Source: Mycolicibacterium sp. MU0053
GTDB taxonomy: Bacteria > Actinomycetota > Actinomycetes > Mycobacteriales > Mycobacteriaceae
DNA length: 64,000 nucleotides
Assembly: GCF_963378095.1 (NCBI RefSeq)
Contig: NZ_OY726397.1
Span: 4,092,001-4,156,000, forward strand
Direction: 5' to 3'
The notes beneath the pieces were generated by a model. It was not told the origin of the DNA, ran no database searches, and worked only from the letters and a program-made list of their open reading frames with translations. Position numbers and translations under genes: made by a program. This document shows positions 14,060 to 41,691 of the stretch, in pieces (within the stretch, counting starts at the first letter, position 1; each line of letters begins with the position of its first letter).

Positions 14060-14060
14060 C

Positions 14061-19726: not shown

Positions 19727-20988
19727 CGGCGCCGCGCACCAGACCGCGCTATGTGCTGCCCCTGGTGCTCACCGCCGGGCTCGGGCTCTCAGGTTGTGCG
19801 ACAGAGGGTTTGAGCAGCCTGCCACTGCCGGCACCAGGAGTGGGATCCGGGGGGTACACGGTGACCGCGGTGTTCGGCAATGCGCTCAACCTGCCCGCCG
19901 ACGCCAAGGTGAAACTCGCCGGCGCCGACGTGGGGCAGATGGAATCGATGCAGGCCCGCGACTACACCGCGGTGGCCACGCTGCGGATCATGGACGGCGT
20001 CCGACTGCCGGAGGGGACCACCGCCGAACTGCGTTCCGCGACGCCGCTGGGCGATGTGTTCATCTCGGTGCGGCCGCCCGCCACCGTCGAACCGAGCGCG
20101 CCGCTGCTCGGCGACGGCGACGTCATCGACATCGACTCCACGGCCTCGGCCGCCACCGTCGAGTCCGTGCTCGGTTCGGCGGCAATCCTGGTCAACGGTG
20201 GTGCGGTGCGCAGCTTCACCAACATCATCAACGGTCTCGGCAAGGCCACCGGCGATCAGGGCCAGGCCTTCGGCGCCCTGATCGACAAGACCAACCGGAC
20301 CCTGGGCAAGCTCAACGCCCGATCCGACGAGATCGCCACCGCGGTGTCCGAGACCAACAACCTGGTGGCGCAGATCGAGACCAAGAACGACGCCCTCGGA
20401 GAGCTGATGACCGAGGCCGGCCCCGCCGCCAACACCCTGGCCCAACACACCACCGGAATCGCCGATCTGGTTCAACAGGTCGGCGCTACCACCGACCAGC
20501 TCAAGAAGTTCCCGTCGATCGCGGGCACCGACACCAGCGGACGCAGCGTCATCGCCGACGCCAACCAGATCGCCGCATCCTGGAATGACCTGGTGGTCGC
20601 CCCCGATGCCACGCTGCGCTCGCTCAACCGCCTGATGCCGCCCCTGATCAAGGGCACCTCCGGCAATTCGCTGGCCACCCGGGCCAGCATCGACCGCCTG
20701 GTCCTGGGTTCGATACCGGACATCGGGTTCACCGGCGATGTGGGCCTGCACGGCCCCAAACGCTATAACTGGGAACAACTGGTCGGTTCGTTCAAGTACA
20801 CGCTGTGGCGCCTGCAGGAGCGCATCGTCGGCAAGGGCCCCGAGGTTCCGCAGGTGCCGGTGCTGCCGAGTCCGACCGAACCGGGCCAACTTGTGGTGGC
20901 CCCGACTCTCCCCGAGGCGCCACCGCCGCCCCCGGGCCCAGAGGCGCCCCTGCCCGGTCCGCCCCAGAACGCCGAGGCGCCACGGTGA
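19723..20988 (+). CDS. MceE lipoprotein, mce operon 1
   Basis: 421 aa with a classical lipoprotein signal: hydrophobic residues 11-22, then the lipobox LSGC with Cys near residue 25. The MCE domain follows (LPADAKVKLAGADVGQ), then a helical domain and a Pro-rich C-terminus (PPPPGPEAPLPGPP). MceE is normally the lipid-anchored subunit of the Mce hexamer, of the LprK/LprN type. It overlaps mceD by ATGA and mceF by GTGA. Confidence 0.9.
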   Translation: MTAPRTRPRYVLPLVLTAGLGLSGCATEGLSSLPLPAPGVGSGGYTVTAVFGNALNLPADAKVKLAGADVGQMESMQARDYTAVATLRIMDGVRLPEGTTAELRSATPLGDVFISVRPPATVEPSAPLLGDGDVIDIDSTASAATVESVLGSAAILVNGGAVRSFTNIINGLGKATGDQGQAFGALIDKTNRTLGKLNARSDEIATAVSETNNLVAQIETKNDALGELMTEAGPAANTLAQHTTGIADLVQQVGATTDQLKKFPSIAGTDTSGRSVIADANQIAASWNDLVVAPDATLRSLNRLMPPLIKGTSGNSLATRASIDRLVLGSIPDIGFTGDVGLHGPKRYNWEQLVGSFKYTLWRLQERIVGKGPEVPQVPVLPSPTEPGQLVVAPTLPEAPPPPPGPEAPLPGPPQNAEAPR

Positions 20989-22238
20989 TCGGCGCTGTGG
21001 CCGACGGGCTCGTCGGCGTGGCGCGCGCCGGTCACCGCAAACGCGCGTGGCTGTCGACGTGCGCGCTGATCCTCACCCTGGTGGTGGCCACCGCCTATCT
21101 GCTGCTCGGTGCGCTTCGGGTCAACCCGTTCGCGTCGAGCTACCGGCTCACGGTCGAACTTCCCGAATCCGCGGGGCTGCTGCCCAATCAGGACGTGACA
21201 GTGCGCGGGGTGCCGGTCGGGCGGGTCGAGCGCCTCGACATCACCCCGGCCGGCGTCAACGCCGTGGTCACCGTGAAATCGACGGTCCAGATACCGGAAT
21301 CCAGCGCTGTTCGGGTGTCGGGGTTGTCCCCGGCCGGCGAGCAGTACATCGACTTCGCGGCCGAATCCGAGGCCGGTCCGTTCCTGCAGGACGGCAGCGT
21401 CGTCACCCAGGGCCGCGCCACCGTGCCGGTCAGCCTGGCCGAACTGCTGGCCAACGCCGACGGGGCGCTGGCCCAGGTCGACACCGGCAAGATCGAACTC
21501 ATCAAGCGCGAGCTGAGCCTGAGCAAGGCCGGACCGCAGAAGCTGGCCGACATCGTCGACGGCGGAACCTTCCTGCTCTCGACGCTGGACTCGGTACTGC
21601 CCGAGACCACCAGCGTGCTGCGCACCAGTCGCGTGGTGCTGACCATGGTGGCCGACAAGAACGCCGGAATCGATGTCGCCGCAGACAATCTCGACCAGAC
21701 GCTGGCGGGGATCAGCAGCATGCGGGAGGGCTTCCGGCGCCTCACCGACCAGGCACCGGACGCGTTGGGCTCGGTCGACAATCTGTTGGCCGACAACTCC
21801 GACACCATGGTGCAGCTGCTCGGCAACCTGACCACCACCTCGCGACTGCTGTATCTGCGGGTGCCCGCATTGCACGCGCTGTTCCCCACCCACCGCACCT
21901 CGGTGCTGGATGCGCTCGGCAGCGTCATGCATGACAACGGGCTGTGGGCCACCGCCGACATCTACACCCGGTATGCGTGTGATTACGGCACCCCGCGGCG
22001 GTCGCCGGCCGCCGCCGATTTCGCCGAACCCTTCATGTACACCTACTGCCGCGACGACCACCCCGGAGTCCTGGTGCGCGGCGCCAAGAACGCTCCGAGG
22101 CCGGCCGAAGTGGACAACGGGGCCGGCCCCCCGGCCGGCGCCGACCTCGGCAGGACCACCGATCCGACGCCGCGGGGCCGGTACTCGATTCCGACGCCGT
22201 ACGGCGGGCCGCCGCTGCCGTTCGAACCCCCACGTTGA
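20985..22238 (+). CDS. MceF, mce operon 1
   Basis: 417 aa from a GTG overlapping the mceE stop (GTGA). The N-terminal anchor is ALILTLVVATAYLLLG, and the MCE domain contains LLPNQDVTVRGVPVGRV. The helical domain and a Pro/Gly-rich tail (PYGGPPLPFEPP) are typical of MceF. Two cysteines near the end (RYACDYG, TYCRDD) may form a disulfide. This is the last of the six tube subunits. Confidence 0.88.
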   Translation: MIGAVADGLVGVARAGHRKRAWLSTCALILTLVVATAYLLLGALRVNPFASSYRLTVELPESAGLLPNQDVTVRGVPVGRVERLDITPAGVNAVVTVKSTVQIPESSAVRVSGLSPAGEQYIDFAAESEAGPFLQDGSVVTQGRATVPVSLAELLANADGALAQVDTGKIELIKRELSLSKAGPQKLADIVDGGTFLLSTLDSVLPETTSVLRTSRVVLTMVADKNAGIDVAADNLDQTLAGISSMREGFRRLTDQAPDALGSVDNLLADNSDTMVQLLGNLTTTSRLLYLRVPALHALFPTHRTSVLDALGSVMHDNGLWATADIYTRYACDYGTPRRSPAAADFAEPFMYTYCRDDHPGVLVRGAKNAPRPAEVDNGAGPPAGADLGRTTDPTPRGRYSIPTPYGGPPLPFEPPR

Positions 22239-27424: not shown

Positions 27425-29218
27425 TCAGCGGCCCGGCCAGCGGGCATCGACGATATCGAGCGCATTGGGCAGCCGCGAGCGGTACCGCAGCCGGTCGGCG
27501 GCCTTGAACGGCCCCCACCACGGTGCCTGGAACAGCGGCACGATCTTGACGGCCGGCCCCGAGTAGCCCGAGGCGATCAACACCCCGTTGGCGGCTTGAC
27601 GGCCGCCCTCGTTGGCGCCCTCCATCGTGGTGACGTTCTGATCGGTCTTGACCCAGTCGCCGGCCAGGAACAGATTGTCCACCGCCGTCACCGACGCCGG
27701 CCGACGGGCCCAGGAGCCCGGGTCCTGGATGAACAGCGGCTCGTCGTTGACGATGCCGGGCGTCCCCGGGTTGATGATCGCAGGGTCGAGCATCCAAGAA
27801 TGCAGCATGCGGTCGGTGACGACGATGCCGGTGTCGTTGAGGTGGGCCTTGATCTGTTTCCAGGCCTCGGCCGCGATCTCCGGCGCGGTGCACGCTTTGG
27901 CGCTCTTGCCGTTGAAGTTGCCGGGTGTGGTCCAGTCCGAGATGATCGCCGACAGACAGTCTTTGACGGTCCCGTCGCCGTATCCCGTCAGGGGCCGCCG
28001 CCAGAATTGGGCCTGGCTGATGGAGGTCATGCCCCAACCCGAGTCGACATAGTTCACGTGCCCCTTGGTGACATCGACGCGCTCACGAAGGTAGAACATC
28101 AGCCCGTTCATCCATTCGGTGCGCAGCCGCGCCACGTTGGCCAGGCCGGGGTCTGCCGCCAGCAGGTCGGGGGTCAGCACCGCGGCGAGCTTCTCGCAGG
28201 GCAATGCGGAGATGTACCAATCCGCGTGCACCGGTTGGGGAACGCCGTTGCCGCCCGCCACCGTGGCCGCGGTGATGTGTCGCCCGTCGGTGGAAAAACC
28301 GGTGAGGGCCTGACCGACCCGGAAGTCCACACCCTTGGAGCGCAGGTGGGCAACCCACGGGTCGATCCACTGCGAGCTGGTCGGACCGTTGAGCACCCGG
28401 TCGAAGCCCTTGTTGTCGATGTCGTTGCCCAACAGCAGGATCGACCACACCGACGCCTCCCCTACCAGTCCGATCGAATGCGCGCTGGCATCCCGGGATT
28501 TGGAGGCCGCCAGGTTGCGGATGATGCCGTCGGCGAGGTACCGGTTGTACTCCTTGGAGGCGCGGTCGGCGCCGATGTAGCGTTCCCAGGTCATGTTGTC
28601 CCACTGACCGATCTTGCGTTCGTCACAGCTGGTGACGTAGACCGCGAGCTTCTGGGCGGCATACGCCGCTTCGTGCAGCGGCAGCCGCAGCAACGTCTGG
28701 AACACCGCGGTCAGGGATTCGATGAACGCCTTGGGAGTGATCGGATTCGGCAGCGTCGGCAGCGGAAACGGCAGCGGGATCGTCAGATCCGCCCGGCCCA
28801 GACCGGAGTGCAGATAGGCGGTGGCCCGGGTGAGGTTCTGCCACACCCCGTGGGAGTTGCCGGCGAACGGGATCCGCCGCATCGTATCGGTGACGTTGCG
28901 ATAGAAGCCCGGGAAGAACCGGAAGCCGTGCTCACCGGGCAGCGGGGTGGCACCGGAATTCGGCGCCGGTATTGATCGGGCCTTGCCGCCGAGCGACTTT
29001 CGTTCATAGATCGTCACCGCGTAGCCGCGATCCACCAGTTCGTGGGCCGCCGTCAGACCGGCTACTCCCGCGCCGAAGATAGCCACCGTCCGGCCCGCGG
29101 CCCGGGCCGTGCGGATCGGAGCAAGCGAGGCCAACATGGTCGCCGCCGCACCGGCGGCCGCCGCATTCTGCAGAAATCCCCGCCGAGACATCCGGTGACT
29201 GTCGGTACGTTCTGGCAT
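27425..29218 (-). CDS. Tat-exported FAD oxidoreductase, phytoene-desaturase / HpnE-like
   Basis: 597 aa. A twin-arginine signal (SRRGFLQ, then an Ala-rich core ending TARA) is followed by the FAD motif IFGAGVAGLTAAHEL and the phytoene-desaturase-type GGKARS and EHGFRFFPGFYRN. The C-terminus has the LAGDWV motif followed by MEGANEGGRQAANG, the FAD-binding end of amine oxidase and carotenoid desaturase families. Export by Tat implies a folded flavoprotein acting in the cell envelope, unusual for this group. Substrate is unknown; isoprenoid or sterol-like lipid is inferred from fold and neighbours. Confidence 0.7.
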   Translation of the reverse strand: MPERTDSHRMSRRGFLQNAAAAGAAATMLASLAPIRTARAAGRTVAIFGAGVAGLTAAHELVDRGYAVTIYERKSLGGKARSIPAPNSGATPLPGEHGFRFFPGFYRNVTDTMRRIPFAGNSHGVWQNLTRATAYLHSGLGRADLTIPLPFPLPTLPNPITPKAFIESLTAVFQTLLRLPLHEAAYAAQKLAVYVTSCDERKIGQWDNMTWERYIGADRASKEYNRYLADGIIRNLAASKSRDASAHSIGLVGEASVWSILLLGNDIDNKGFDRVLNGPTSSQWIDPWVAHLRSKGVDFRVGQALTGFSTDGRHITAATVAGGNGVPQPVHADWYISALPCEKLAAVLTPDLLAADPGLANVARLRTEWMNGLMFYLRERVDVTKGHVNYVDSGWGMTSISQAQFWRRPLTGYGDGTVKDCLSAIISDWTTPGNFNGKSAKACTAPEIAAEAWKQIKAHLNDTGIVVTDRMLHSWMLDPAIINPGTPGIVNDEPLFIQDPGSWARRPASVTAVDNLFLAGDWVKTDQNVTTMEGANEGGRQAANGVLIASGYSGPAVKIVPLFQAPWWGPFKAADRLRYRSRLPNALDIVDARWPGR

Positions 29219-29248
29219 TCCCCACCCCCACGCTGGGACCACGATCCG

Positions 29249-30496
29249 TCAAGCAGACAAGTTAACCGCGATTCCGTCGGTTTCGGGGATTTCGCTCGGC
29301 GTGTCGGCGGATCCGAACAGGGTGGCCCGCACCAGCGTGCGGACCCAGGTGCGGGCCTGCTCCGAGTCGGCAGGGCCGTCGTGGCCCATCAGGCGTCCGA
29401 TGTCGATTACCACGGCGAAGCCACCGTGCACGACGAAATGCGCCTCGGCCATGCCGAATTCCGGCTGCACTCCGGTCACCAGCTGCGCCCAGGCCTCGAC
29501 GGTCGCGCGCTGAATGTTGCGCAACACCTTCTGATCGGCGGGCGCCAGGTTGGTCCGCTCGGTGTGATAGACGTGGGCGAGTTCGGGATTATCGAACGAC
29601 CTCGCGATATAGGCCTCGATCAGCCGGCTCAACGCCCGGTCCGGATCCGTCTCGGCGGCAAGGGTATTGGCGACGTCGGCGGAAACCCGGTCGGCGGCCC
29701 GGCGAAAAGACGCCGCCAGAATGTCGGCCTTACCGACGAAGTACCGGTAGATGCCCGAAGCCGGCATCCCGACCGCGGCGGCGATGTCCTCCACACCGGT
29801 CTGGTGGTACCCCCGTCCGTGGAACAGGATCAGCGACGCGCGCAGCACCTCCTCGTACCGGCCCGCACTCACCTCCCCCGGGGCGGCCACGATGGCCTGC
29901 GAGATCCCCTGCGGCAGTTCGGCACTGAGCACAGCGACGGCCCGGTCGAGCAACAGCGTGCGAATCTGCGCGTGGCCGAGTTGCGCGTGATGGTCGGCGA
30001 CCGACCCGATCACGCTAAGCGCTGCCGCCGACAGCGTCCAGCGCTGCGGGCTGGTGAGGTCGGGGCGCAGCTCGCGCAACGGCAGCTGGATCCGGCGGTT
30101 GACCAGCTTCAGCTGATCCATGAGCAGCCGGCGGTCGTCGTCGCTCAGATACCTGGCCTGGCGCCGGTAGAGCCCACCCGAGCTGCGGTTCGTCAGCGCC
30201 GTATCGATGAGCGCCCCGAGGATCCGCTCGCGTAACTGCACTGGATCATCGCCCGCGGGCGTCGTCTCGACGAACTCGGTACAGTCGGCCAGCTGAGCCC
30301 CCAGCGCCAGGACCGCATCCCGGAACAGCTGGTACTTGCCGGCGGCGTGGCGGTACAGCGCCGTCGCCGAGATGCCGACGCGGGCGGCGATGTCGTCCAT
30401 GCTCACCGCGTGGTAGCCCGACTCCCCGAAGGCCTCGGCCGCCGCGCGGGCAATCTGAGCCTTGCGGTTTCGGGGACGCCTACGCACCGAGGACAT
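29249..30496 (-). CDS. Double TetR-family regulator, Mce3R-like
   Basis: 415 aa with two complete TetR DNA-binding domains in tandem. The first is near residues 14-65 (AFGESGYHAVSMDDIAARVG, then TALYRHAAGK) and the second near residues 205-255 (LFHGRGYHQTGVEDIAAAVG, then SGIYRYFVGK). Mce3R of M. tuberculosis (about 406 aa) has the same rare arrangement and represses the divergent mce3 operon. Here the gene is likewise divergent from mce operon 2. The ATG at 30496 was chosen; an extension to 30661 runs through the promoter region. Confidence 0.8.
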   Translation of the reverse strand: MSSVRRRPRNRKAQIARAAAEAFGESGYHAVSMDDIAARVGISATALYRHAAGKYQLFRDAVLALGAQLADCTEFVETTPAGDDPVQLRERILGALIDTALTNRSSGGLYRRQARYLSDDDRRLLMDQLKLVNRRIQLPLRELRPDLTSPQRWTLSAAALSVIGSVADHHAQLGHAQIRTLLLDRAVAVLSAELPQGISQAIVAAPGEVSAGRYEEVLRASLILFHGRGYHQTGVEDIAAAVGMPASGIYRYFVGKADILAASFRRAADRVSADVANTLAAETDPDRALSRLIEAYIARSFDNPELAHVYHTERTNLAPADQKVLRNIQRATVEAWAQLVTGVQPEFGMAEAHFVVHGGFAVVIDIGRLMGHDGPADSEQARTWVRTLVRATLFGSADTPSEIPETDGIAVNLSA

Positions 30497-30780
30497 GGCC
30501 GATACGGTAACGCACCGGCGACCGTGGCGTGCGACCGCACAGTGGGAATTCATCACAACATCACGGTGCGTGTCCACACTCGTGCATATGCGAATATAGC
30601 TGCTCGGCAGGATCATAGCGGCGTAACCGGCGCTATTCTCGACGTCCCGTTCGACCACCATCAGCGCGAACGATCATTAACTTAGTGCTTGCGCACGCAT
30701 CTCAGCTGTGCCATGCTCCACACGACCGGGGGGTCGGGAACTGCATCCCCGGACGACGCGACCAGACCGGGAAGGACGCC
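30497..30780. promoter_or_regulatory. Divergent control region of the double-TetR gene and mce operon 2
   Basis: 284 bp without a gene. Inverted repeats are CGTTCG-N13-CGAACG at 30648-30672, GTGT-N2-ACAC at 30570-30579 and the 8-bp palindrome GCATATGC at 30584-30591. Any could serve the double-TetR regulator. GGGAAGGACG at the right end is the ribosome site of yrbE A. No KstR-type motif is present. Confidence 0.5.
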
Positions 30781-31593
30781 ATGACCTACGAGCTGCCGGT
30801 CACCAAGGGCCCGGTGCGCGACCTCATGGTGCAGGCCGGTTACATCCTGGGATTCTCGGTGCAGGCACTCCTGAACGTCGGGACCGCGGTGGTCCGCCGA
30901 CGGTTGGCGGTCGACGAGCTGGTGACCCAGACGCTGTTCATCGGCCGGGTGTGCACCGGACCGGCGCTGCTGCTGATGATGCCGATCGGCGTCTTCATCG
31001 CGGTCTCGGTCGGTGAGCTGGCCGGCCGGATCGGGGCCGGCGGCTACTCGGGCGCGGTGGTGGCGTTCATCGTCGTAGGTCAGGCCGCCGCCCTGGTGTG
31101 CGCGTTGATGATGGCCGGCGTTGCGGGATCAGCGATCTGCACCGACCTGGGGTCGCGAAAGATCCGCGAGGAGGTCGACGCCATGGAGGTCATGGGCCTC
31201 GACGTGATCGAACGCCTGGTGGCACCGCGGCTGATCGCGGCCGTGATCGTCTCCGTCGCGCTGTGCGCGATGGTCACCTTCGCCGGCGTGCTGGCCTGCT
31301 ACGCGTACCACATCGCGGTCCAGCAACTACCCGCCGGCAGCTTCCTGGCGACCTTCAGTCAGTACGGCCGGGTCTCGGACTTCACTATGGCGCTCATCAA
31401 GGCCGCGGTGTTCGGTCTGACCGCGACGTTGGTGGCGACCTTCAAGGGTTTGCACGCCAAGGGGGGACCGCGCGGTGTCGCCGACTCGGTCAACGAGGCC
31501 GTGGTGCTGGCCTTCGCGCTGGTGTTCATCCTCAACACCATCCTGTCCGCGCTCTACACGGTGGTGGTGCCGGCGGTGGGCAGCTACCGATGA
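30781..31593 (+). CDS. YrbE A permease subunit of mce operon 2
   Basis: 270 aa, first gene of the second mce operon. The permease loop DLGSRKIREEVDAMEVMGLD is intact near residue 125, and the C-terminal block GGPRGVADSVNEAVV matches YrbE A. Five to six hydrophobic segments are visible. Unlike its counterpart in operon 1 the 5' end is in frame, with GGGAAGGACG before the ATG at 30781. It overlaps yrbE B by 4 bp (ATGA). Confidence 0.92.
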   Translation: MTYELPVTKGPVRDLMVQAGYILGFSVQALLNVGTAVVRRRLAVDELVTQTLFIGRVCTGPALLLMMPIGVFIAVSVGELAGRIGAGGYSGAVVAFIVVGQAAALVCALMMAGVAGSAICTDLGSRKIREEVDAMEVMGLDVIERLVAPRLIAAVIVSVALCAMVTFAGVLACYAYHIAVQQLPAGSFLATFSQYGRVSDFTMALIKAAVFGLTATLVATFKGLHAKGGPRGVADSVNEAVVLAFALVFILNTILSALYTVVVPAVGSYR

Positions 31594-32447
31594 CCGCCCT
31601 GACCAGCTCAGCTCCGCTGCATCGCGTGGCCCAGCCCGCCACCGCCGGCTACCACGGCCTCGCCGTCATCGGCCAACACGTCAGCTTCTACGGCAAGGTC
31701 CTGAGCTCGCTGCCGTATGCCCTGGTCCGGTACCGCAAGCACACGCTGGGCCAGATCGGCGAGGTCACGTTCGGCAACAGTTCGCTGCTGTCCGGCGGCG
31801 GGACCATCGGCATCGTCTTCGCGATGTCGCTGGCCGCGGCCATGATGCTGGGGGTCGAGACCCAGCGCGGCCTGGATCTGGTGGGCATGAACACGCTCTC
31901 GGGCATGCTCGCGGCGATCGCGAACACCCGCGAACTGGCACCGGTCGTCGTCGCAATCGCGTTGGCCGCCAAGGTGGGAACGGGATTCACCGCCCAGATC
32001 GGCGCAATGCGGATCTCCGATGAGATCGACGCCCTCGACGCGATGGCGCTGCGGTCCATCCCGTTCCTGGTGGGCACCCGGGTCATCGCCGCGGTGGTCT
32101 GCGTCATCCCGATCTACATGATCGGGCTGCTGGCCAGCTACCTGTCCACCCGCACCGTGGTGGTGTTCTTCAACGGTGCCTCCCCGGGCACCTACGACTA
32201 CTTCTTCCATTTGGCGCTGAGCCCGCAGGACCTGTTGTATTCGGGCATCAAGGCCGTCGTCTTCGCCGTCGTCGTCGCCCTGGTGCACTGCACCTACGGC
32301 TACTTCGCCACCGGCGGTCCCGAGGGCGTCGGTCAGGCGGCCGGACGTGCGTTGCGCACCGCGATCCTGGCCATCGGCATGCTCGACGTCCTGCTGACGT
32401 TCGCGCTGTGGGGGCTGGTCCCCGAGATCCCCGGGATGGGGATGTAA
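31590..32447 (+). CDS. YrbE B permease subunit of mce operon 2
   Basis: 285 aa. The loop IGAMRISDEIDALDAMALRS near residue 140 and the FATGGPEGVGQAAGRALR block near the C-terminus identify it. It begins inside the yrbE A stop (ATGA) and its TAA abuts the mceA ATG. Together the YrbE pair forms the inner-membrane part of the transporter. Confidence 0.92.
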   Translation: MTALTSSAPLHRVAQPATAGYHGLAVIGQHVSFYGKVLSSLPYALVRYRKHTLGQIGEVTFGNSSLLSGGGTIGIVFAMSLAAAMMLGVETQRGLDLVGMNTLSGMLAAIANTRELAPVVVAIALAAKVGTGFTAQIGAMRISDEIDALDAMALRSIPFLVGTRVIAAVVCVIPIYMIGLLASYLSTRTVVVFFNGASPGTYDYFFHLALSPQDLLYSGIKAVVFAVVVALVHCTYGYFATGGPEGVGQAAGRALRTAILAIGMLDVLLTFALWGLVPEIPGMGM

Positions 32448-33842
32448 ATGCGCATCCCACGAAAAAGACGGCGCCGCAGGTCCTTTCTGCCCGGTCGGCC
32501 GTGGCTGGCGGTCCGCGGGTTGATCGCGGTGGTGGCCGCCGGGGCCATCGCGGCCGTTCTCGTCGGCCGCGCCACCGGCAGCCTCGATCCCACCGGCGAC
32601 GTCTTCGTGGGCGTCCCGGTCTCGGCCGGCCTGATCAGCACCGCCGCCCCGGTGCGCTACCACGGTGTCAACGTCGGACGGATCGCCGAGATCGAGTCCG
32701 GCACCCAGACCTCGCGGGTCCGTCTTGCCATCGACCGGGATTCGCTGCCGCTGATCCCGGACACGGTGGTCGCCCGGATTGTGCCCCGCACCTTCTTCGG
32801 CGACATCTACCTGCAGTTGGCCGACGACCCCGGCGGGCGCACCGGCAAACCGCTGGGCACCGGGGCCACCATCTCGATCGACGACAGCGACGACGCCATG
32901 GCGCTCTATGACGTCTTCACCAAGATCGTCGACGTCTTCAGCACCATCAAGCCCGAGAAGATGCAGACCGCGCTCACCGCGATCAGCCAGGCGCTGCGCC
33001 ACCGGGGCACCGAAATCGGTTTTACGATCGACAATCTCAGAGACGTCTCGGCCCTGCTGACCCCCACCGTGGTCCAATTCCTGGACACCACCCCGCAGTT
33101 CCGCGATGTGATGGCGGCCCTGCACACCGCGACACCCGACATCCTGACCACGTTGTCGGCCGCCACCAACGTGTCCAATCGGCTGGCCGACGACAGCGCC
33201 GCGTTCGGCTCCGCGCTCAGCGAGATGGCCGGCCTCGGTTCGCTGCTCACCGGGTTCTTCGCCGACCACCGGGACCAGTTCATCACCGTCCTCGACGCCG
33301 CCGGCAAGGTACTGGCCACCACGGCGGCCCACCCCGAGGGGTTGGTCGAGACGCTGGTGGGTGCCCGTGATTTCGGCGCGGCCGGCAGCAAGGTGTTCGC
33401 CACCGGCAAGTTCAGCATCACCGCGGTCGCGACGTTCGCCGGGCCGATGCCCTACACGGCCGCCGACTGCCCGGTGTACGGGACCAGCTACGGCGCGCAC
33501 TGCGCCGAGGCCGACCCGTTCAACCCGGTCCCGACGATGCCGCTGGAGGTTCCGTTGCCGGACTCGGTGGACCTGAAAACACCCGCGCCCGTGGTGTTCC
33601 TCCCGGAGGGCCAGCCCAGCGGCGGCGCTGCGCCCCCGCCGCCGGGACCCGCGCCGCACTTCCCCGCCGAAGCCGCACCGGCCGCCGCGATCGCCGGCGG
33701 CGCCGCCGAGGCCCACGCCCTGGGCGTGCTGCAGAACGAGGTGCTCGGCCGCGGCGCGCGCGACGGCACCCCCGAGCCGAACATCGCCACCGTGATGATG
33801 CTCGGCCCGTTGGTGCGCGGCACGGCGGTGCAGGTGTCATGA
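32448..33842 (+). CDS. MceA, mce operon 2
   Basis: 464 aa. The N-terminus is strongly basic (RKRRRRR) before one membrane anchor (residues about 27-45). The MCE domain contains ISTAAPVRYHGVNVGRIAEI. The C-terminus is Pro/Ala-rich and ends with the MLGPLVRGTAV motif shared with MceA of operon 1. Three cysteines are visible, two of them in DCPVYGTSYGAHCAE. It is the first of six tube subunits and starts directly after yrbE B. Confidence 0.88.
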   Translation: MRIPRKRRRRRSFLPGRPWLAVRGLIAVVAAGAIAAVLVGRATGSLDPTGDVFVGVPVSAGLISTAAPVRYHGVNVGRIAEIESGTQTSRVRLAIDRDSLPLIPDTVVARIVPRTFFGDIYLQLADDPGGRTGKPLGTGATISIDDSDDAMALYDVFTKIVDVFSTIKPEKMQTALTAISQALRHRGTEIGFTIDNLRDVSALLTPTVVQFLDTTPQFRDVMAALHTATPDILTTLSAATNVSNRLADDSAAFGSALSEMAGLGSLLTGFFADHRDQFITVLDAAGKVLATTAAHPEGLVETLVGARDFGAAGSKVFATGKFSITAVATFAGPMPYTAADCPVYGTSYGAHCAEADPFNPVPTMPLEVPLPDSVDLKTPAPVVFLPEGQPSGGAAPPPPGPAPHFPAEAAPAAAIAGGAAEAHALGVLQNEVLGRGARDGTPEPNIATVMMLGPLVRGTAVQVS

Positions 33843-34885
33843 CCGTGCGTTGGCAGGCCTGGGCCAAGGTGGGCGCATTCTGCGCCGCCGGGTTGATGAG
33901 CGGATTGCTGGTGGTCAACACATTGTCGGTGCCGGTGCGCGGCAAGACCACGCACTACGTCGCGCAGTTCAGCAGCATCGAAGGCCTCAGCGTCGGCAAC
34001 CCGGTGACCATGAACGGGATTCGGATCGGCCGCGTCGACTCGATCCGCTTCGCCGACAACGGCCAGGGCACCAGCCGCGCCGACGTCGGGCTGGAGGTCA
34101 AATCCCGCTACGCGCTGACCACCGACGTCACCGCCGCGGTGCGCTACGGCGACATGCTCGGCGCCCGCTACGTCGCGCTGTCCGACCCAACCGGAACCGT
34201 GCTGGAGCTGTCCACCGGGGAGCCACGACAGCTGCTGGCGGCCGGCGGTGTGATCCCGCTGACGGCCACCTCCCCCGCCGTCGACCTGACCGCGCTGCTC
34301 AACGGATTCAAGCCGCTGTTCGACGCCCTCGAGCCCCAGCAGGTGAACACGATCACCCGCGGCTTCGCCGAAACCTTCGGCGGCCAAACCCAGACGGTCA
34401 CGACGCTGCTGGCGCAGATCGCGACCATGACCGCCGCCATGGACCACAACGAGCAGATCTTCACCGCGCTGATCGACAACGTCTCGGCGCTGATGAGTTC
34501 GGTCCACGCCCGCCAACCGCAACTATCCGAAATGCTCGACGGGCTCGAGCGGCTGACAGCGACGGTCACCGGGCCCAACGGCCAACTCGAACTGCTGCTC
34601 GACCAGGGCAACGCGGTATTGGCCACCCTCGCCAACACCGTCACGCAGTCCTCGGTCGCCTACGGCGACGCCGTCACCGACCTGAACGCCATGCTGGGCA
34701 CCTGGACCGACAACACCGGCGAGTTCCAGGCGCTCGTCGAAAAGCTGCCGCAGTTCGCCGACTCCATCAACCGCGCCAGCAGCTACGGCGGTTTCGTCAG
34801 CCTCTACCTGTGCAACTTCACGCTGAAGATCGCCAAGCATGAGGCGAACATCTTCGGACGCCGGCATACGGAGGTGTGCCGGTGA
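33839..34885 (+). CDS. MceB, mce operon 2
   Basis: 348 aa. The N-terminal anchor is VGAFCAAGLMSGLLVVNTL and the MCE domain contains LSVGNPVTMNGIRIGRV. A helical region of about 200 residues follows, with a C-terminal LYLCNFTLKIAKHEANIF block. The ATG overlaps the mceA stop (ATGA). It is part of the hetero-hexameric Mce tube. Confidence 0.88.
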   Translation: MTVRWQAWAKVGAFCAAGLMSGLLVVNTLSVPVRGKTTHYVAQFSSIEGLSVGNPVTMNGIRIGRVDSIRFADNGQGTSRADVGLEVKSRYALTTDVTAAVRYGDMLGARYVALSDPTGTVLELSTGEPRQLLAAGGVIPLTATSPAVDLTALLNGFKPLFDALEPQQVNTITRGFAETFGGQTQTVTTLLAQIATMTAAMDHNEQIFTALIDNVSALMSSVHARQPQLSEMLDGLERLTATVTGPNGQLELLLDQGNAVLATLANTVTQSSVAYGDAVTDLNAMLGTWTDNTGEFQALVEKLPQFADSINRASSYGGFVSLYLCNFTLKIAKHEANIFGRRHTEVCR

Positions 34886-35937
34886 TGTTCCTGGTCAAGC
34901 TGATCGACCTGCTCGTCGGCGCGGTGCTGTTCCTACTGAAGAAGGACCGCGGACACAATCCGACGATTCCGTTGACCCTCGGGGCGCTCGGCACCCTCGG
35001 TCTGATCGCGCTGACGCTGGTGACGATCGCGCTGCCCCGCACCTGGTATCAGGTACGCACCGACGCGTTCACCGCCGAGATGGCCAACGCCAGCGGACTG
35101 ACCGGCGGCGACCCGGTGTACGTCGCGGGGGTGCCGGCCGGGCGAGTCGAACGCGTCAACCTCGCCGGCGACCACGTCCGGGTCGACTTCCGCCTCGACA
35201 GTGCCCAACCCCTGGGCAACCAGACCACAGCGACGGTGCGGCTCCGCACCGTGCTGGGCAAGCGCTTCCTCGACGTCATGCCCGCCGGTGTGGTCGATCC
35301 GGCCGCCGGCACCGTGATCCCGTTGTCGCGCACCACGGTTCCCTACAGCCTCGACGAGGTGGGGCGCTCGGCCGAGGCGGCCGCCACCGGCGTCGACCAG
35401 GCGGCGTTGACCGCCGCGATGCGCACCGTGCAGGAGTCGATCCCTACCGACAACACCGACCTGAGTGCCGCGCTGGCCGGGATCGGCAGCGCCAGCGCGG
35501 TATTCGCCGAAAGCGGCGACAAGTTCGACGAACTGCTGCGCATCTCGCGGTCGTTGTCGGCGCTGCTGGTCGAGCAGAACGAGTCGGTGACCAACACCGC
35601 CGCCAACGCCGCGCACATCGTCTCGGCGCTGACCGCCCGCCGAGACGCGCTGAGTCAGATCGTCACCAACCTCAGCGCGCTGCTGCGCGAACTGTCGGTG
35701 GTGTACAGCGAAAAGCAGCCGGAGTTCCGCGAAGTGATCACCAAGCTCAGTGCCGTGACCGCCACCCTGAAGGCCAACGCCTACCACATCGACGAAACGC
35801 TGCGCACCCTGCCGCCGGCAATGCGGTCGGTCACCAACGCCACCGGCAACGGCAATTGGGCCGACGTCAACTCCCCGTCGCTGGTGATGCCGGACAACCT
35901 GCTGTGCGCCTTGAACATCCAGCGGTCGTGCCGATGA
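34885..35937 (+). CDS. MceC, mce operon 2
   Basis: 350 aa from the ATG at 34885 (TGATG with the mceB stop). A GTG at 34882 has better spacing from GGAGG and would give the GTGA overlap seen elsewhere, so the start is uncertain by one codon. The N-terminus is unusual for Mce proteins: two hydrophobic segments (residues about 1-18 and 32-52) separated by KKDRGHNPT. The MCE domain contains LTGGDPVYVAGVPAGRV. The C-terminus ends with LLCALNIQRSCR. Confidence 0.85.
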   Translation: MFLVKLIDLLVGAVLFLLKKDRGHNPTIPLTLGALGTLGLIALTLVTIALPRTWYQVRTDAFTAEMANASGLTGGDPVYVAGVPAGRVERVNLAGDHVRVDFRLDSAQPLGNQTTATVRLRTVLGKRFLDVMPAGVVDPAAGTVIPLSRTTVPYSLDEVGRSAEAAATGVDQAALTAAMRTVQESIPTDNTDLSAALAGIGSASAVFAESGDKFDELLRISRSLSALLVEQNESVTNTAANAAHIVSALTARRDALSQIVTNLSALLRELSVVYSEKQPEFREVITKLSAVTATLKANAYHIDETLRTLPPAMRSVTNATGNGNWADVNSPSLVMPDNLLCALNIQRSCR

Positions 35938-37046
35938 GGTCCCGCAAACGTGCCGTCGCGATGGCCGTCGCAGTCCTGGCCTTCCTGGGCGCCGGCGGGT
36001 GGTACGTGTTCGGCAAAACCGACAACGCCACCACCGTGCATGCCGACTTCAGCTACATCAACGGCATCTACCCGGGCAGCAGCGTCACGGTGCTCGGGGT
36101 GCCGGTCGGTCGGGTCACCGCGGTCAACCCGCAGGGCACCACGGTCCGGGTCTCGATGTCGCTGCCGGCCGAGGTGGAGTTGCCCGCTGAGGTCAACGCC
36201 TACATCATGAGCCCCGCGCTGATCAGCGATCGCAGCGTCGAGCTCGGCCCGGCCTATGGCGGCACCGGCCCGAAATTGCAACCTGAGCAGGTCATCCCGG
36301 CTGACCGCGCCCACGCCCCGATCACCTTCGACAGCATGCTGACCAGTCTCACCACCATGACCGACGCGCTGGGCCCCGACCAGGGCGACCTGAGCCGGCT
36401 GCTGGCCAGCGGCGCCGACCAGTGGCGGGGGCAGGGCAAGCAGTTCAACACCGCGATCCGCAACCTCAGCACGGCCACCGGCGTCGTCGGCGCCCGAGCC
36501 GAGGACATCGACACCGTGGTCGAGAACCTCGGCACCATGATGAGCGCGTTCAACCAGCGCCAGGTCTCGCTCAATGACCTCGTGAGTTCCCTTGGGATGC
36601 TCGGAGACTCGTGGGCGGATCAGAATCTGGACATCACCGGCCCGATGAACGACCTCAAGACCGTGCTGGACCAGGTGAATGCCGTCGTCGCCAATCACAC
36701 CGACGACATGGGCGCCATCGCCGGCAACCTCAACGCCGTCGGCGACATCCTGAACCGGCGTCAGCCCGAACTCGCCGAGTTCATGGACCTGCTGCCGCTG
36801 ATGATGCAGAACCTGTCGGGCACCATCGGTCCGGACCGCCGCGGCCGGATTCGGCTCAACGTATCTTCGGTGCTCACGCAGTTCGCGGACGCGCACAACT
36901 TCTGCGAACGCCACCAATGGCCGATCTGTTCGGGTATCGGCCTGGTCAACCCGATCTCGTTCCCCATCAGCCGTTCCGACCCGCTGGGCATCGTCAGCGC
37001 CGTCACCGGCGTCATCCCCCCGCCGAACCCGGAGCACCCGAGGTGA
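35934..37046 (+). CDS. MceD, mce operon 2
   Basis: 370 aa. The anchor is AMAVAVLAFLGAGGWYVFG, and the MCE domain contains IYPGSSVTVLGVPVGRV. The helical region leads to a C-terminus with two cysteines (NFCERHQWPICSG) and a Pro-rich end. It overlaps mceC (ATGA) and mceE (GTGA). The overall pattern closely matches MceD of operon 1. Confidence 0.88.
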   Translation: MRSRKRAVAMAVAVLAFLGAGGWYVFGKTDNATTVHADFSYINGIYPGSSVTVLGVPVGRVTAVNPQGTTVRVSMSLPAEVELPAEVNAYIMSPALISDRSVELGPAYGGTGPKLQPEQVIPADRAHAPITFDSMLTSLTTMTDALGPDQGDLSRLLASGADQWRGQGKQFNTAIRNLSTATGVVGARAEDIDTVVENLGTMMSAFNQRQVSLNDLVSSLGMLGDSWADQNLDITGPMNDLKTVLDQVNAVVANHTDDMGAIAGNLNAVGDILNRRQPELAEFMDLLPLMMQNLSGTIGPDRRGRIRLNVSSVLTQFADAHNFCERHQWPICSGIGLVNPISFPISRSDPLGIVSAVTGVIPPPNPEHPR

Positions 37047-38110
37047 GCCCCGTGCGCAAACCGGCCACCACCACCGCGGCCATGCTCGGCATCGCCGCGC
37101 TGAGCGGCGTCGCCCTGTGGGCCGGATCCGAGATCGGCATCCAGGACCTGCCGATCGGACGCAGCGCCCAGGGCCAGGCGATGTCGCTCACCGTCGTGCT
37201 GCCGACCGCGGACGGCATCGCGATCGGCGCCGACGTGCGCGACGGGCAGAAGGTGGTCGGGCGGGTCAGCGGGTTGAGCCTCGCGGCCTCCGGGGCCTCG
37301 GTGGAGCTGAGTGTGCGTGCTGACGCGCAGTTGCCCGTCAACACCATCGCCAGCGTGGAACTGCCGTCGGCCCTGGGCAATCCGTTCGTTCGACTGGCTG
37401 CACCCGAGCAGCCGTCCGGTCGTGCGCTGCGCGACGGCGACGTCATTCCGCCCACCCAGACCGAACTCGGGCCGCAGATCGAGACGGCGCTGGCCACCTT
37501 CGGCGCGTTGATGTCCCGCAGCGGCGTCGACCAGTTGACCACGATCGTCACCGAACTCGACAAGGCCTTCGGGGGCCGCACGGCGAAGGTCCGCGGGCTC
37601 CTCGACGCGATGTCGGTGCTGACCGCCAAAACCGAAGAACACCAACGCGACTTCGATGAGGCATTGCGCCTGGCGTCCGACATCAGCGCGCAGTTCGCCC
37701 GCGAACAGCACACGCTCAACGCCTATCTGGACTCGCTGCCCAGGGTGGTGGCCATGCTCGATGTCCAGCGGGCCAAGATCGAGACGCTGTTCGCCTCGAC
37801 GACCGCGCTGGCCGCCACCGCCAACCATGCCTTCGCGCACGCCGACACCGCGGCGATCGTGCGCGATGCCGGCACCGTGGTGACGGCGCTGAGCAGCTAC
37901 AACGACCGGCTGACCGACACCTTGTCCACCATGAACACCTTCCTCGACCGGTTCGGTGCGTCGGTGCACGGTGACTACCTGATGTTCGATGGGGCGCTGG
38001 ACATTCCGGGCACCATCGACAAGCTGCTCACCGGCGGTTTGATCGTCAACGGCATCCCGATCACCGGCCAACAGGCGCTCGACGGATTCCTCTCTGGGGG
38101 GTTGCGATGA
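37043..38110 (+). CDS. MceE-position protein lacking the lipobox cysteine, mce operon 2
   Basis: 355 aa from a GTG overlapping mceD (GTGA). The N-terminal hydrophobic stretch TTAAMLGIAALSGVALWAG aligns with the lipoprotein signal of MceE in operon 1, but the lipobox reads LSGV (codon GTC) instead of LSGC, so lipidation seems impossible. The MCE domain is present (IAIGADVRDGQKVVGRVSGL). It is shorter than MceE of operon 1 (421 aa), lacking a Pro-rich tail. It may be held by an uncleaved anchor. Confidence 0.82.
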   Translation: MSPVRKPATTTAAMLGIAALSGVALWAGSEIGIQDLPIGRSAQGQAMSLTVVLPTADGIAIGADVRDGQKVVGRVSGLSLAASGASVELSVRADAQLPVNTIASVELPSALGNPFVRLAAPEQPSGRALRDGDVIPPTQTELGPQIETALATFGALMSRSGVDQLTTIVTELDKAFGGRTAKVRGLLDAMSVLTAKTEEHQRDFDEALRLASDISAQFAREQHTLNAYLDSLPRVVAMLDVQRAKIETLFASTTALAATANHAFAHADTAAIVRDAGTVVTALSSYNDRLTDTLSTMNTFLDRFGASVHGDYLMFDGALDIPGTIDKLLTGGLIVNGIPITGQQALDGFLSGGLR

Positions 38111-39321
38111 GTCGGCTGGTCCTGGTTCAAGTGGCCATCTTCGCGGTCATCAGCGCCATCGTGGTGCCGTTCGGCATCCGGTACGTGGTGGGTTCGCAGG
38201 GTTTTCAGACCCCGACGACGTTGCACGCCACCATGGCCGACGGCTTCGGTCTGACCGCGGGCACCAGCGTCACCGTGCGCGGCGTCGAGGTCGGCACCGT
38301 CGCCGCCGTGGGGTTGGGACCCGAGGGCGGGGCCCAGGTGGAGCTGTCGGTCGATCCCGAGGCCCGCATCCCGCGCGATTCGATCATGACCGTCGGCATG
38401 GGCACCGCGGCCGGCATCCAAAGCGTGGACATCCTCCCGCAATCCGGTGGGGGGCCGTTCCTGGCCTCCGGCGATACCATCGCCGCGCCGGCCGAACGGC
38501 AGCCGGTACAGATGGATCGCGTCATGCAGGAAGCCGGCCGGCTGATCAAGGGCATCGACGCTCGGGCGGTCGCGGATGTCTCCACCGAGCTGTCGGATTC
38601 GTTCACCGGGCTGGGGCCCAGCCTGGCCACGCTGATCGACAACGCCGCCGTCATCTCCCAGGGTCTGCACGACCGCGCCAGAGCGCTGCAGCCCCTGATT
38701 GAGGGCACCGCCCGGCTCGTCACGACAATGGCCGCGCAGCAGAGCAGCTTCGTGCGCGGCATGGGCGCCAGCGCGCGGTTCACCACCCAACTCGACGACA
38801 ACGGGCCGGTGTTTCTCCACCTGACCGACCATTCCCCGGCCGCGCTGGCCTCGGTACGGACTGCGCTGGACACCTACCGCGACACCTTCGGCGCGACGTT
38901 GGCCAACCTCGCCACGGTGGCGCCGATCGTCGGCGACCGTACCGAGTCCTTGGCCACCGGACTGACCGCGATTCCGCAGGGGCTCTACGACCTGTCCTCG
39001 ATTGTCAAGGGCGATCGTGCGAACTTCGCGCTGATCGCCACCCAGGGTCCGGTGTGCGTGCATGACGTCGACCGCCGCACGATCGGCGACATCTCCCCCG
39101 TCGAACCCGACCTGGTGCGGTATTGCCCGCCGTCACCGGATATGCAGATGCGCGGCGCGGTCAACGCGCCCCGCCCCAACGACCTCGGCATGCAGAACTC
39201 GCAGCTTCCCGGCGGCGTGATCGGGCCGCCGGTGGTGCGCGACCCGATCAAGATCCCGACCCTGGCAGAGCTGGTTTACAAATGGCGAATGATTCTGCGC
39301 AACAACGATGTACCGCGCTGA
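38107..39321 (+). CDS. MceF, mce operon 2
   Basis: 404 aa. The anchor is VQVAIFAVISAIVVPFGI, and the MCE domain contains LTAGTSVTVRGVEVGTV. A helical region follows, and the C-terminal part carries two cysteines (GPVCVHDVDRR, VRYCPPSPD). It overlaps the mceE gene by ATGA and is 25 bp before mas, closing the six-gene set. Confidence 0.88.
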   Translation: MSRLVLVQVAIFAVISAIVVPFGIRYVVGSQGFQTPTTLHATMADGFGLTAGTSVTVRGVEVGTVAAVGLGPEGGAQVELSVDPEARIPRDSIMTVGMGTAAGIQSVDILPQSGGGPFLASGDTIAAPAERQPVQMDRVMQEAGRLIKGIDARAVADVSTELSDSFTGLGPSLATLIDNAAVISQGLHDRARALQPLIEGTARLVTTMAAQQSSFVRGMGASARFTTQLDDNGPVFLHLTDHSPAALASVRTALDTYRDTFGATLANLATVAPIVGDRTESLATGLTAIPQGLYDLSSIVKGDRANFALIATQGPVCVHDVDRRTIGDISPVEPDLVRYCPPSPDMQMRGAVNAPRPNDLGMQNSQLPGGVIGPPVVRDPIKIPTLAELVYKWRMILRNNDVPR

Positions 39322-39346
39322 TGTGACAACTCCTGGAGGATCCGCA

Positions 39347-39895
39347 ATGGCAACAACCGAGACCGTCACCGACGACGCGAGCGTGGAAACCGAAGCCGAC
39401 ACCGCGCCCGATCCATCCTCGCGCGGCCGGACCCGTCGCGCCCTCGTGGCCCTGTTGGTGGCCGCAGTCCTGACCCTCGGCGGGGCCCTGGGTTACACGC
39501 TGTATCAGCAGAGCGAGTTGCATACGCTGCAGCAGGATGCGGTCTCCACGGCCCGCGACTACCTGGTGGCGATGGCGTCGTTCGACTACCAGAATCTGGA
39601 CGCCAACAAGGGTGCGATCACCGCCGGGTCCACCCCGGAGTTCGCGCACAAGTACGACGAGATGGTGGCGGCGCTGCGCGACATCGTCGTCACCAGCAAG
39701 GGCGTCGCGACGGCAGCGGCGGAGCACGTGGCCGTGGAACGGCTGGCCTCCGACGCAGCCACCGTCATCGGGTTCGTCGACCAGCAGGTCACCAATGTCA
39801 CTGCACCCGAGGGCAACACGCAGCGCTACCGGATGGCGGTCGAGTTGGTTCGCAGCGGCGATCGCTGGCTCGTGAACGACGTGCAGACCCTGTAA
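39347..39895 (+). CDS. Mce-associated membrane protein (Mas), mce operon 2
   Basis: 182 aa from an ATG at 39347 with GGAGGA upstream; an in-frame GTG at 39308 lies inside mceF. An acidic N-terminus is followed by one membrane helix (ALVALLVAAVLTLGGALGY) and a SnoaL/NTF2-like extracytoplasmic domain ending RWLVNDVQTL. It resembles the Mas gene of operon 1. It lies 25 bp after mceF and 19 bp before the first DUF2236 gene. Confidence 0.85.
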   Translation: MATTETVTDDASVETEADTAPDPSSRGRTRRALVALLVAAVLTLGGALGYTLYQQSELHTLQQDAVSTARDYLVAMASFDYQNLDANKGAITAGSTPEFAHKYDEMVAALRDIVVTSKGVATAAAEHVAVERLASDAATVIGFVDQQVTNVTAPEGNTQRYRMAVELVRSGDRWLVNDVQTL

Positions 39896-39914
39896 TCACC
39901 CGAAGGAGATCGCG

Positions 39915-40817
39915 ATGCCAGCTCAGTACCTGCCCGTGGAGACGCCACCGGCGTTGACCACCGAGCAGACCCGGATTCAGATCACCCAGCGCACCCCGCG
40001 CTGGAACAAGAAGCAGGTCGACCTCACCGACGCGCTCGACTTCTGGTCGGCGGCCGCCTCGGCCGCCAACGTCATCATGCAGCTCAGTCGGCCCGAGGTG
40101 GGCTACGGCGTCGCTGAAAGCCGCGTCGAATCCGGGTCGTTGATGCATCATCCCTGGAAACGGCTGCGCACCACCGCACAGTATCTGGCGGTCGCGATCC
40201 TGGGCACCGACGAGGAGCGCGCCGCCTATCGGGAGGCCGTCAACGTCGCCCACCGGCAGGTTCGCTCCACTGCCGAGAGCCCCGTCAAATACAACGCCTT
40301 CAATCGTGACCTCCAATTGTGGGTGGCAGCTTGCCTGTTCATCTTCTATGAGGACACCTACCAGTTGCTGCACGGCGCCATGTCGCCGGAGCAGGCCGAG
40401 AACTTTTATCAGAGCGCCATGCCGATCGGCACCACACTGCAGGTGCTCGAGGACCAATGGCCGGCCACCCGAGCCGATTTCGACGTGTACTGGAACACCT
40501 CGTGTGAGCAGATCCAGATCGACGACTTCGTGCGCGACTTCCTCAACGAGCTGGTCGCGCTGAAGATGATCAACATCGTTCCGCGGCTGATCCTGGCGCC
40601 GCTGCTGCGGTTCTTGACGATCGGTTTTCTGGCCCCGGTGTTCCGCGAACCGATGGGATTGGAATGGTCCGAGACCGACCGTCGCCGCTTCGAGCACCTG
40701 TTCCTGTTCGTGTCGCTCGTCAACCGGTTCATCCCGCGCTTCGTGCGCACCTACAACTACACGATCCTGATGAAGGATCTGCGCCGCCGCATCCGCCGCC
40801 AGAAGGCCCTGCTCTGA
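39915..40817 (+). CDS. DUF2236 oxygenase (MpaB/Lcp-type), operon partner of mce operon 2
   Basis: 300 aa from an ATG at 39915 with CGAAGGAG upstream, 19 bp after mas, so very likely part of the mce operon. DUF2236 hallmarks are seen in order: WKRLRTT, the VAHRQVRS histidine/arginine motif (HxxV class) near residue 115, and YNAFNRDLQLWVAACLF. A hydrophobic segment near residues 215-240 could attach it to the membrane. Relatives include the fungal oxygenase MpaB and the rubber-cleaving Lcp, which oxidise prenyl-type chains. The substrate here is unknown. Confidence 0.75.
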   Translation: MPAQYLPVETPPALTTEQTRIQITQRTPRWNKKQVDLTDALDFWSAAASAANVIMQLSRPEVGYGVAESRVESGSLMHHPWKRLRTTAQYLAVAILGTDEERAAYREAVNVAHRQVRSTAESPVKYNAFNRDLQLWVAACLFIFYEDTYQLLHGAMSPEQAENFYQSAMPIGTTLQVLEDQWPATRADFDVYWNTSCEQIQIDDFVRDFLNELVALKMINIVPRLILAPLLRFLTIGFLAPVFREPMGLEWSETDRRRFEHLFLFVSLVNRFIPRFVRTYNYTILMKDLRRRIRRQKALL

Positions 40818-40844
40818 CCGTGCCGACCCCCTTCTCCTTCTTGC

Positions 40845-40904
40845 GCGAGCGGGCGTGTCCCCGGCCGACACGCCGGGGATTTTCCGGTGTTCACGCACGC
40901 TCGC
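40845..40904 (-). repeat. 60-bp dispersed element, copy A (inverted)
   Basis: One of four 60-bp copies; on the minus strand it reads GCGAGCGTGCG at the start and GACACGCCCGCTCGC at the end. The termini form an imperfect inverted repeat (12 of 13 bases). It lies 28 bp after the first DUF2236 gene and is inverted relative to copies B, C and D. Confidence 0.75.
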
Positions 40905-40920
40905 CGTATGGAGTAGCCCC

Positions 40921-41691
40921 GTGACAGCGACCATGCTGCGACGCTATGTCGGCGACCGACGGTTCCTGTTCATGCTGCCGCGGGCGGTGTGTCTGCAATT
41001 GCTGCATCCCGCGATCGCCACCGGTATCCGGGACCACGCGCTGCTGCGCGAGCGGATCTGGCAGCACAAGAAGCGGACCGTCACCGCCGCGGTCGACATC
41101 GCCTTCACCGAGATGGACATGCGCTCGTTCATCCGGTTCGGACACGAGCACGTCAAGGGCCGGACCGCCGACGGCACCAAGTACCACGCCCTCGATCCCG
41201 GGATCTTCCACTTTCAACACGCAACCTACGTGGAATCCCTGGTGACAGTGGTTAACTCGTTCATCCGGCCGCTCGACGACATCGAACACGAGCAGCTGTA
41301 TCAGCAGTGCTGCCAGTGGTATCGCCGGTACGGCATTTCGGCGCGCGCCATGCCCGCGGACTGGCCCGCATTCCAGACGTACTTCGCGGACTACTGCCGC
41401 ACCGAACTCGTCGGCGGCGAGCACTTCGAGCATTTCCGCACCGAGATCTTCGAGCCCTCGGACTGGTGGCCACGCCTGGTGCCGCGCTCGGCGATCCGCG
41501 CCATGCAGCACGAGATCGCGGTCGAACTCACCGGGGTGCGACCCAGCGCCCGGGATCGGCGCGCGCTGCGCACCTTCGCCGGTCTGTCCCGCGTCGGCGC
41601 GACGATTCCCGCGCTGCGCGCGCCCGCGAAGGTGCGCAAACCCGCAAAAGTGTCCGGCGGGTCGGCCGGGGACACGCCCGCTCGCGCTTAG
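40921..41691 (+). CDS. Second DUF2236 oxygenase, 3' end inside a 60-bp repeat
   Basis: 256 aa from a GTG at 40921 (an ATG at 40933 is possible). The DUF2236 pattern is clear: CLQLLHPAIATGI, the histidine motif FGHEHVKGRTADG near residue 80, and YHALDPGIFHFQHATYVES. It is shorter than its neighbour and not closely similar to it, so the two are not a recent duplication. Residues 236-255 are encoded by repeat copy B, which shows the element invaded or replaced the natural 3' end. It is flanked by inverted copies A and B. It may be transcribed with the mce operon, 103 bp after the first oxygenase. Confidence 0.72.
   Translation: MTATMLRRYVGDRRFLFMLPRAVCLQLLHPAIATGIRDHALLRERIWQHKKRTVTAAVDIAFTEMDMRSFIRFGHEHVKGRTADGTKYHALDPGIFHFQHATYVESLVTVVNSFIRPLDDIEHEQLYQQCCQWYRRYGISARAMPADWPAFQTYFADYCRTELVGGEHFEHFRTEIFEPSDWWPRLVPRSAIRAMQHEIAVELTGVRPSARDRRALRTFAGLSRVGATIPALRAPAKVRKPAKVSGGSAGDTPARA
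41626..41685 (+). repeat. 60-bp dispersed element, copy B
   Basis: Same 60-bp element, plus orientation, starting GCGAAGGTGCGC and ending GACACGCCCGCTCGC. It lies inside the last 20 codons of the second DUF2236 gene. Confidence 0.75.

Follow-up and report, generated by a model that had tools for sequence, protein, structure and literature searches.

The locus studied here raises the question of why an importer of the Mce type should be followed by two DUF2236 genes and face a regulator with two TetR domains. It lies in a 64,000-nucleotide stretch of Mycolicibacterium sp. MU0053, referred to as the window, which covers positions 4092001–4156000 of contig C1, the one contig (5.45 Mb) of the source genome (G000). 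The regulator REG (415 aa, 29249–30496, minus strand) is divergent from a complete operon on the plus strand, in which two yrbE permease genes are followed by mceA to mceF and by a gene for a mce-associated protein, mas. The first DUF2236/MpaB-Lcp protein, D1 (300 aa, 39915–40817, plus strand), starts 19 bp after the mas stop at 39895, and the second DUF2236 protein, D2 (256 aa, 40921–41691, plus strand), starts 103 bp after the D1 stop at 40817. A sequence-only reading had described a Mce3R-like regulator divergent from a complete yrbE-mceA-F-mas operon with these two gaps behind it. All the genes that it named are present, and the order, the orientation and both gaps were confirmed.

We consider it fairly probable that the locus encodes an uptake-and-oxidation regulon, in which Mce imports a hydrophobic substance that contains C=C bonds, its oxidation falls to D1, D2 and a neighbouring flavoprotein, and REG controls the set. 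Bound at GAAYNNNNNTTMACWTA operators, REG would keep the genes repressed, and binding of the compound or of a product would release it. On release of REG, the Mce complex (YrbEA, YrbEB, MceA–F and Mas) would bring the compound into the cell, where it would be cleaved or oxidised by D1 and probably D2, predicted haem-b oxygenases with the DUF2236/MpaB-Lcp fold that would be located in the cytoplasm or attached to the membrane. The exported flavoprotein would act outside the membrane on the same compound or on a precursor. The module proposed earlier thus stands in part. There is support for the importer, D1 and the Mce3R-like regulator as a unit that is conserved and shares an operator-like motif, and the flavoprotein belongs with them; the menaquinone genes, the co-transcription of D2 and an isoprenoid substrate fared poorly.

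The linkage of D1 and mce was analyzed using the best 80 of 364 D1 relatives, taken from named organisms with flanks of up to 10 kb. An mce gene is located within 3 kb of D1 at 58 loci and at 3–10 kb at four; 12 loci have none in the flanks, and the flank is too short at six. The 58 linked loci span seven genera and several arrangements, and the conservation of the linkage in relatives is thus borne out. REG is found within 1.5 kb of D1 at 18 of the 80 loci, and D2 follows D1 within 200 bp at 24. An orthologous operon ending in D1 is present in Mycolicibacterium, Rhodococcus, Gordonia, Tomitella and Millisia, with YrbEA 73–95% identical where present. In Mycolicibacter and some Nocardia, D1 follows a different mce operon (YrbEA 39–45%). 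D1 is divergent from an mce operon in other Nocardia and from REG in some mycobacteria. According to the D1 tree, for which long rows were reduced to the last 330 residues, the context changes 15 times; shuffling gives a mean of 57.6, and the possible minimum is six. In the source genome, comparison of coordinates placed just two of the 17 DUF2236 genes, namely D1 and D2, at 3 kb or less from an mce component. Among D1 relatives, in contrast, such a link is the rule. Literature searches found no title or abstract on DUF2236–mce linkage.

The intergenic regions between REG and yrbEA and between REG and D1 share a common block, GAAY-N5-TTMAC-WTA. In several regions CTTGC comes next, and TGTG..A.GCT lies about 20 bp further along. 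The consensus of the operator-like motif is GAAYNNNNNTTMACWTA. Applied to 11 of these 14 regions (the near-copies L051, L082 and L086 were left out), motif discovery gave a score of 127.4, against a mean of 50.6 with a standard deviation of 2.5 in 30 shuffles. As the consensus had first been read by eye from the same sequences, this discovery was not blind, and more independent tests were made with further genomes and with Nocardia. Three exact copies are present in the source genome, before yrbEA (GAACGATCATTAACTTA, 30668–30684, plus strand, 96 bp before the yrbEA start), before a D1 paralogue and before a Lcp-like DUF2236 gene at genome position 5321831. All three precede a DUF2236 gene or a DUF2236-bearing operon. 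Eight more copies carry one mismatch, near the control level (eight control sites at up to one mismatch); they include one before the flavoprotein gene (GAATCGCGGTTAACTTG, 29258–29274, minus strand), within the 3′ end of the regulator gene.

Across 59 genomes of the genus, 93 motif sites were found in 38 genomes, and the reversed control gave 12; the flanks of all these sites were examined to a distance of up to 1.5 kb in both directions. A module gene, defined as REG, D1, yrbEA, the flavoprotein or the Lcp-like DUF2236 gene, is located in this range at 70 of the 93 motif sites and at none of the 12 control sites; the former number is 72 when a 74-aa protein is counted. A gene of the set lies directly downstream in the motif orientation at 57 sites, or at 33 without the 74-aa protein. 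The genes found were the 74-aa protein (38 sites), REG (30), yrbEA (22), D1 (19), the flavoprotein (13) and the Lcp-like DUF2236 gene (three). When the genomes contributing to the motif (G000, G010, G012 and G066) were removed, 60 of 82 sites remained near a module gene, or 62 with the 74-aa protein; G004 also contributed sequence and has no exact site. Among the named loci, of which 77 were scored and three were unscorable, an exact or one-mismatch site is located upstream of 20 of 23 operons of this type and of 43 of 54 D1 genes in other settings. The reversed pattern gave one site overall. For 20 Nocardia loci, 55 sites with up to one mismatch were found in the 26.6 kb before D1 and two in the other 380 kb, and the control gave one and none, respectively. 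Order-wide, 53 sites were found in 120 genomes. Co-regulation of the module is well supported at the computational level.

The 74-aa protein, hydrophobic by eye and first noticed in these same intergenic regions, follows the motif at 37 of the 93 sites, often beside the regulator, and is located ahead of the D1 paralogue at L227. Three homologues scanned gave no Pfam match. The Lcp-like DUF2236 gene with the exact copy (L295; L168, 5508–6899) matches the family weakly, with 28.7 bits, and the same pairing of exact motif and Lcp-like gene is observed at L269 and L294, in two other genomes.

REG carries two TetR_N stretches (Pfam), and residues 55–424 of its long open reading frame match the Mce3R chain of M. 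tuberculosis (9b7y) with an E-value of 1.1e-33. With two TetR units per chain and a nearly full-length match, REG is Mce3R-like. Since the match begins about there, the start is probably at 30496 rather than at 30661. Mce3R is a single-chain double-TetR protein, encoded beside the mce3 operon, which it represses, according to the parts of the two papers used here (PMC2277422, PMC11667970). REG is likewise a single-chain double-TetR protein beside an mce operon. The same sources give the Mce3R operator as two asymmetric 25-bp sites, and the parts used name no DUF2236 target for Mce3R, whereas the motif neighbours here include DUF2236 genes, the Tat flavoprotein, the 74-aa protein and further mce operons. 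The source genome contains four matches to REG at an E-value of 1e-10, two of them full-length (REG included) and two partial, and the second full-length homologue (55%) adjoins the D1 paralogue at genome position 4299204. The regulator gene within 1.5 kb of 30 motif sites is compatible with repression, by REG, of both the divergent mce operon and its own gene.

D1 and D2 score 212.9 and 154.6 bits against PF09995 (cut-off 23). The closest D1 match with an organism name is that of Mycolicibacterium chitae (91% identity), which one source labels FadD27, probably a misnomer. A PDB sequence search with D1, alone or as a profile, gave no match up to an E-value of 1. The best fold matches of the predicted D1 model are latex-clearing protein (Lcp; 5o1l, 5o1m) and t-anethole oxygenase (8s1j), and the fold is Lcp-like, although the aligned part is only 12% identical to Lcp and 6% to t-anethole oxygenase. 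The Lcp residues R164, T168 and H198, transferred via L129 and 5o1l, correspond to R83, T87 and H113 of D1, and they are kept in 94, 93 and 94 of the 94 D1 proteins. The predicted fold and these residues argue for oxygenase chemistry in D1. Lcps act outside the cell, whereas no signal peptide or other export signal was seen by eye in the D1 translation, and D1 does not show the combination of clear sequence kinship and export signal of an Lcp rubber oxygenase. The nitrile rubber oxygenase Nro1 of Gordonia sp. J1A is a membrane-bound MpaB-family protein with proposed C=C cleavage, and its H104 corresponds to Lcp H198 (PMC12724181, in part). By description only, Nro1 can be set beside D1 as an actinobacterial MpaB-family protein of similar size; the text of that paper does not mention mce. 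The substrate would be hydrophobic, and nothing further is supported. The suggestion of an isoprenoid, drawn from the MpaB/Lcp precedent and the flavoprotein's weak likeness to desaturases and a dehydroxylase, is weak; the DUF2236 family also cleaves other alkenes.

Several observations weigh against uptake and oxidation. D1 is not invariably an mce neighbour, as 12 of the 80 loci show. No module gene is near 21 of the 93 motif sites (20 loci), and 14 of the 77 scored loci have no motif site, namely 11 of the Mycolicibacter clade, with D1 in other settings, and three operons of Gordonia and Millisia. The Nocardia motif has a fixed one-base difference, and outside the family the 17 sites in 103 genomes are modestly above the five of the control. 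In the alignment, D2 is without the triad arginine. The D1 model is of middling quality, with a predicted local distance difference test (pLDDT) score of 70.2, and residues 112–118, including the haem histidine, are below 50. Furthermore, the lipids moved by some mce systems may be those of the cell itself; the direction of import is for this reason an assumption.

A different explanation is that the locus serves envelope maintenance. Mce would then move endogenous lipids (polyprenols, carotenoid-like or peroxidised lipids), the DUF2236 proteins and the flavoprotein would modify or repair them, and the regulator would sense membrane stress. The flavoprotein (27425–29242, minus strand) belongs to the Amino_oxidase family, and its gene is 6 bp downstream of REG on the same strand. 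It has a Tat-like signal (SRRGFLQ in the translation) and weakly resembles carotene desaturases and hydroxysqualene dehydroxylase (99.1 bits for the latter, cut-off 283), which favors this explanation. So does the clustering of genes at the 20 motif loci that have no module gene nearby, in which one family was common to two loci and no catabolic family recurred. In contrast, close D1 orthologues (at least 71% identity) are present in six of 61 genomes searched, the source genome included, as expected of a dispensable trait, and a divergent TetR layout often accompanies substrate-induced genes. Envelope maintenance is a serious but unlikely explanation. The flavoprotein belongs to the module. 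In relatives, it and the mce operon are immediate divergent neighbours, and motif copies point in both directions (L241, L254, L260, L266, L024, L038–L048); at three loci (L177, L257, L277) it has its own motif copy with no yrbEA in the stretch.

The polyprenyl and menaquinone genes nearby had also been taken to fit the module. Around the cluster, menG, a geranylgeranyl-reductase-like gene, an M48 peptidase gene and a MenD-like gene are located, and menG is close to the cluster in many mycobacterial loci. We presume that these surroundings are the standard mycobacterial menaquinone neighbourhood. Within the flanks examined, no menG was found where Rhodococcus, Gordonia, Tomitella and Millisia carry the same operon. 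The menaquinone genes look like a housekeeping neighbourhood, and their fit to the module is weak.

Another explanation is that D1 and D2 have lost oxygenase activity and now serve the importer by binding lipids or as sensors. In 93 of 94 D1 proteins, alanine takes the place of the histidine in the common WxHAT stretch, and in D2 the alignment shows histidine at the position of the triad arginine, with the threonine and histidine of the triad kept. The D1 stretch LWVAACL was considered as a lost haem ligand and rejected, because the Lcp ligand H198 aligns with D1 H113. As H198 of 5o1l aligns with this kept histidine, the WxHAT histidine is not the haem ligand, and Lcp-like paralogues are likewise without it. 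Together with the near-complete retention of R, T and H among D1 proteins, this makes a loss of activity improbable. A phmmer match of D2 to aerolysin (E-value 0.19–0.23) was taken as chance. Mere chance adjacency of two large families is hardly credible, because, although the source genome has 17 DUF2236 genes and 16 yrbE pairs and both families are listed among the Pfam categories most expanded in mycobacteria (PMC3388012, in the part used), it is already contradicted by the linkage, which recurs in several genera and layouts, and by the shared motif, whose 12 control sites have no module gene nearby.

A transcript shared by D2 and the mce genes is a weak point of the module. A dispersed repeat of about 60 bp, GCGAGCGGGCGTGTCCCCGGCCGACACGCCG...TGCGCACGCTCGC, with outer ends inverted, fills most of the D1–D2 gap (40843–40904, plus strand). 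A second copy in inverted orientation (41626–41687, minus strand) lies at the 3′ end of D2, so that the two copies flank D2 head to head, and a further copy is located at 43365 of the window. The repeat occurs at 43 places in the genome (up to two mismatches in a 21-base core). The gap copy folds to −38.3 kcal/mol over 66 nucleotides, indicating a strong hairpin. A terminator scan of the gap with a five-T rule found nothing, and Rfam at gathering thresholds gave one tRNA in the window and no match on the repeat. The repeat is at the same place in the nearest relative, G012. The D1 loci were extended by thirteen 19-kb stretches, including that of the source genome's own D1 paralogue, and none of the other loci among the resulting 93 (L023–L115) contains the repeat core. 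In other loci with an adjacent D2, the D1–D2 distance is 14–60 bp by alignment. The repeat may act as a terminator, or it may be a miniature mobile element. As the hairpin lies in the gap here and in G012, D2 may be partly uncoupled in the source lineage.

The operon itself has the two yrbE permeases and six mce genes on one strand of an actinobacterial Mce operon. The plus-strand genes are yrbEA (30781–31593) and yrbEB (31590–32447), both MlaE permeases, mceA (32448–33842), mceB (33839–34885), mceC (34876–35937), mceD (35934–37046), mceE (37052–38110) and mceF (38107–39321). MceE is usually a lipoprotein; no cysteine is visible in the N-terminal region here. The single mas (39347–39895, plus strand), preceded by a ribosome-binding-site-like GGAGG, owes its name to its place in the operon and to a match to the Rv0361 family that stays below threshold. 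A single mas after mceF is also a feature of the mce7 operons (Casali and Riley 2007, PMC1810536), a likeness by mas count only, and the parts of that paper used mention no linked DUF2236 gene.

The source genome has 32 MlaE matches, equal to 16 yrbE pairs, and 109 MlaD matches. According to a quick YrbEA tree with a midpoint root and some long branches, YrbEA of the D1-linked loci and that of a second mce operon, also complete, in the window (13298–22238, plus strand) are in one part, and 12 of the 16 genome YrbEA are elsewhere. YrbEA of the second operon belongs to a branch that is D1-linked in other species. The weak one-mismatch motif copy upstream of it (13064–13080, minus strand) points away from the operon. 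In three further mce arrays, at genome positions 618007–627157, 4933788–4939827 and 5018729–5024909, the yrbE pair follows the mce genes or no pair adjoins them.

We give about even chances to a broader proposal, an undescribed regulon of mycolic-acid bacteria in which Mce3R-type regulators and the GAAYNNNNNTTMACWTA operator (with its Nocardia variant) control an Mce branch, the D1 clade of intracellular haem C=C-cleaving oxygenases, the Tat flavoprotein, the 74-aa protein and the Lcp-like oxygenase. If so, bacteria would be able to take up an alkene lipid and split its C=C bond as ozone would. To our knowledge, only a minority of Mce importers have an assigned substrate, and D1 would be a chemical clue to that of the D1-linked branch. 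The motif is a candidate consensus for Mce3R-type double-TetR regulators, for which the literature, in the parts used, describes the M. tuberculosis Mce3R sites only. The oxygenase, the flavoprotein and the compact operator would give three handles on one Mce branch, namely the target of D1, the signal of the regulator and the genes switched together.

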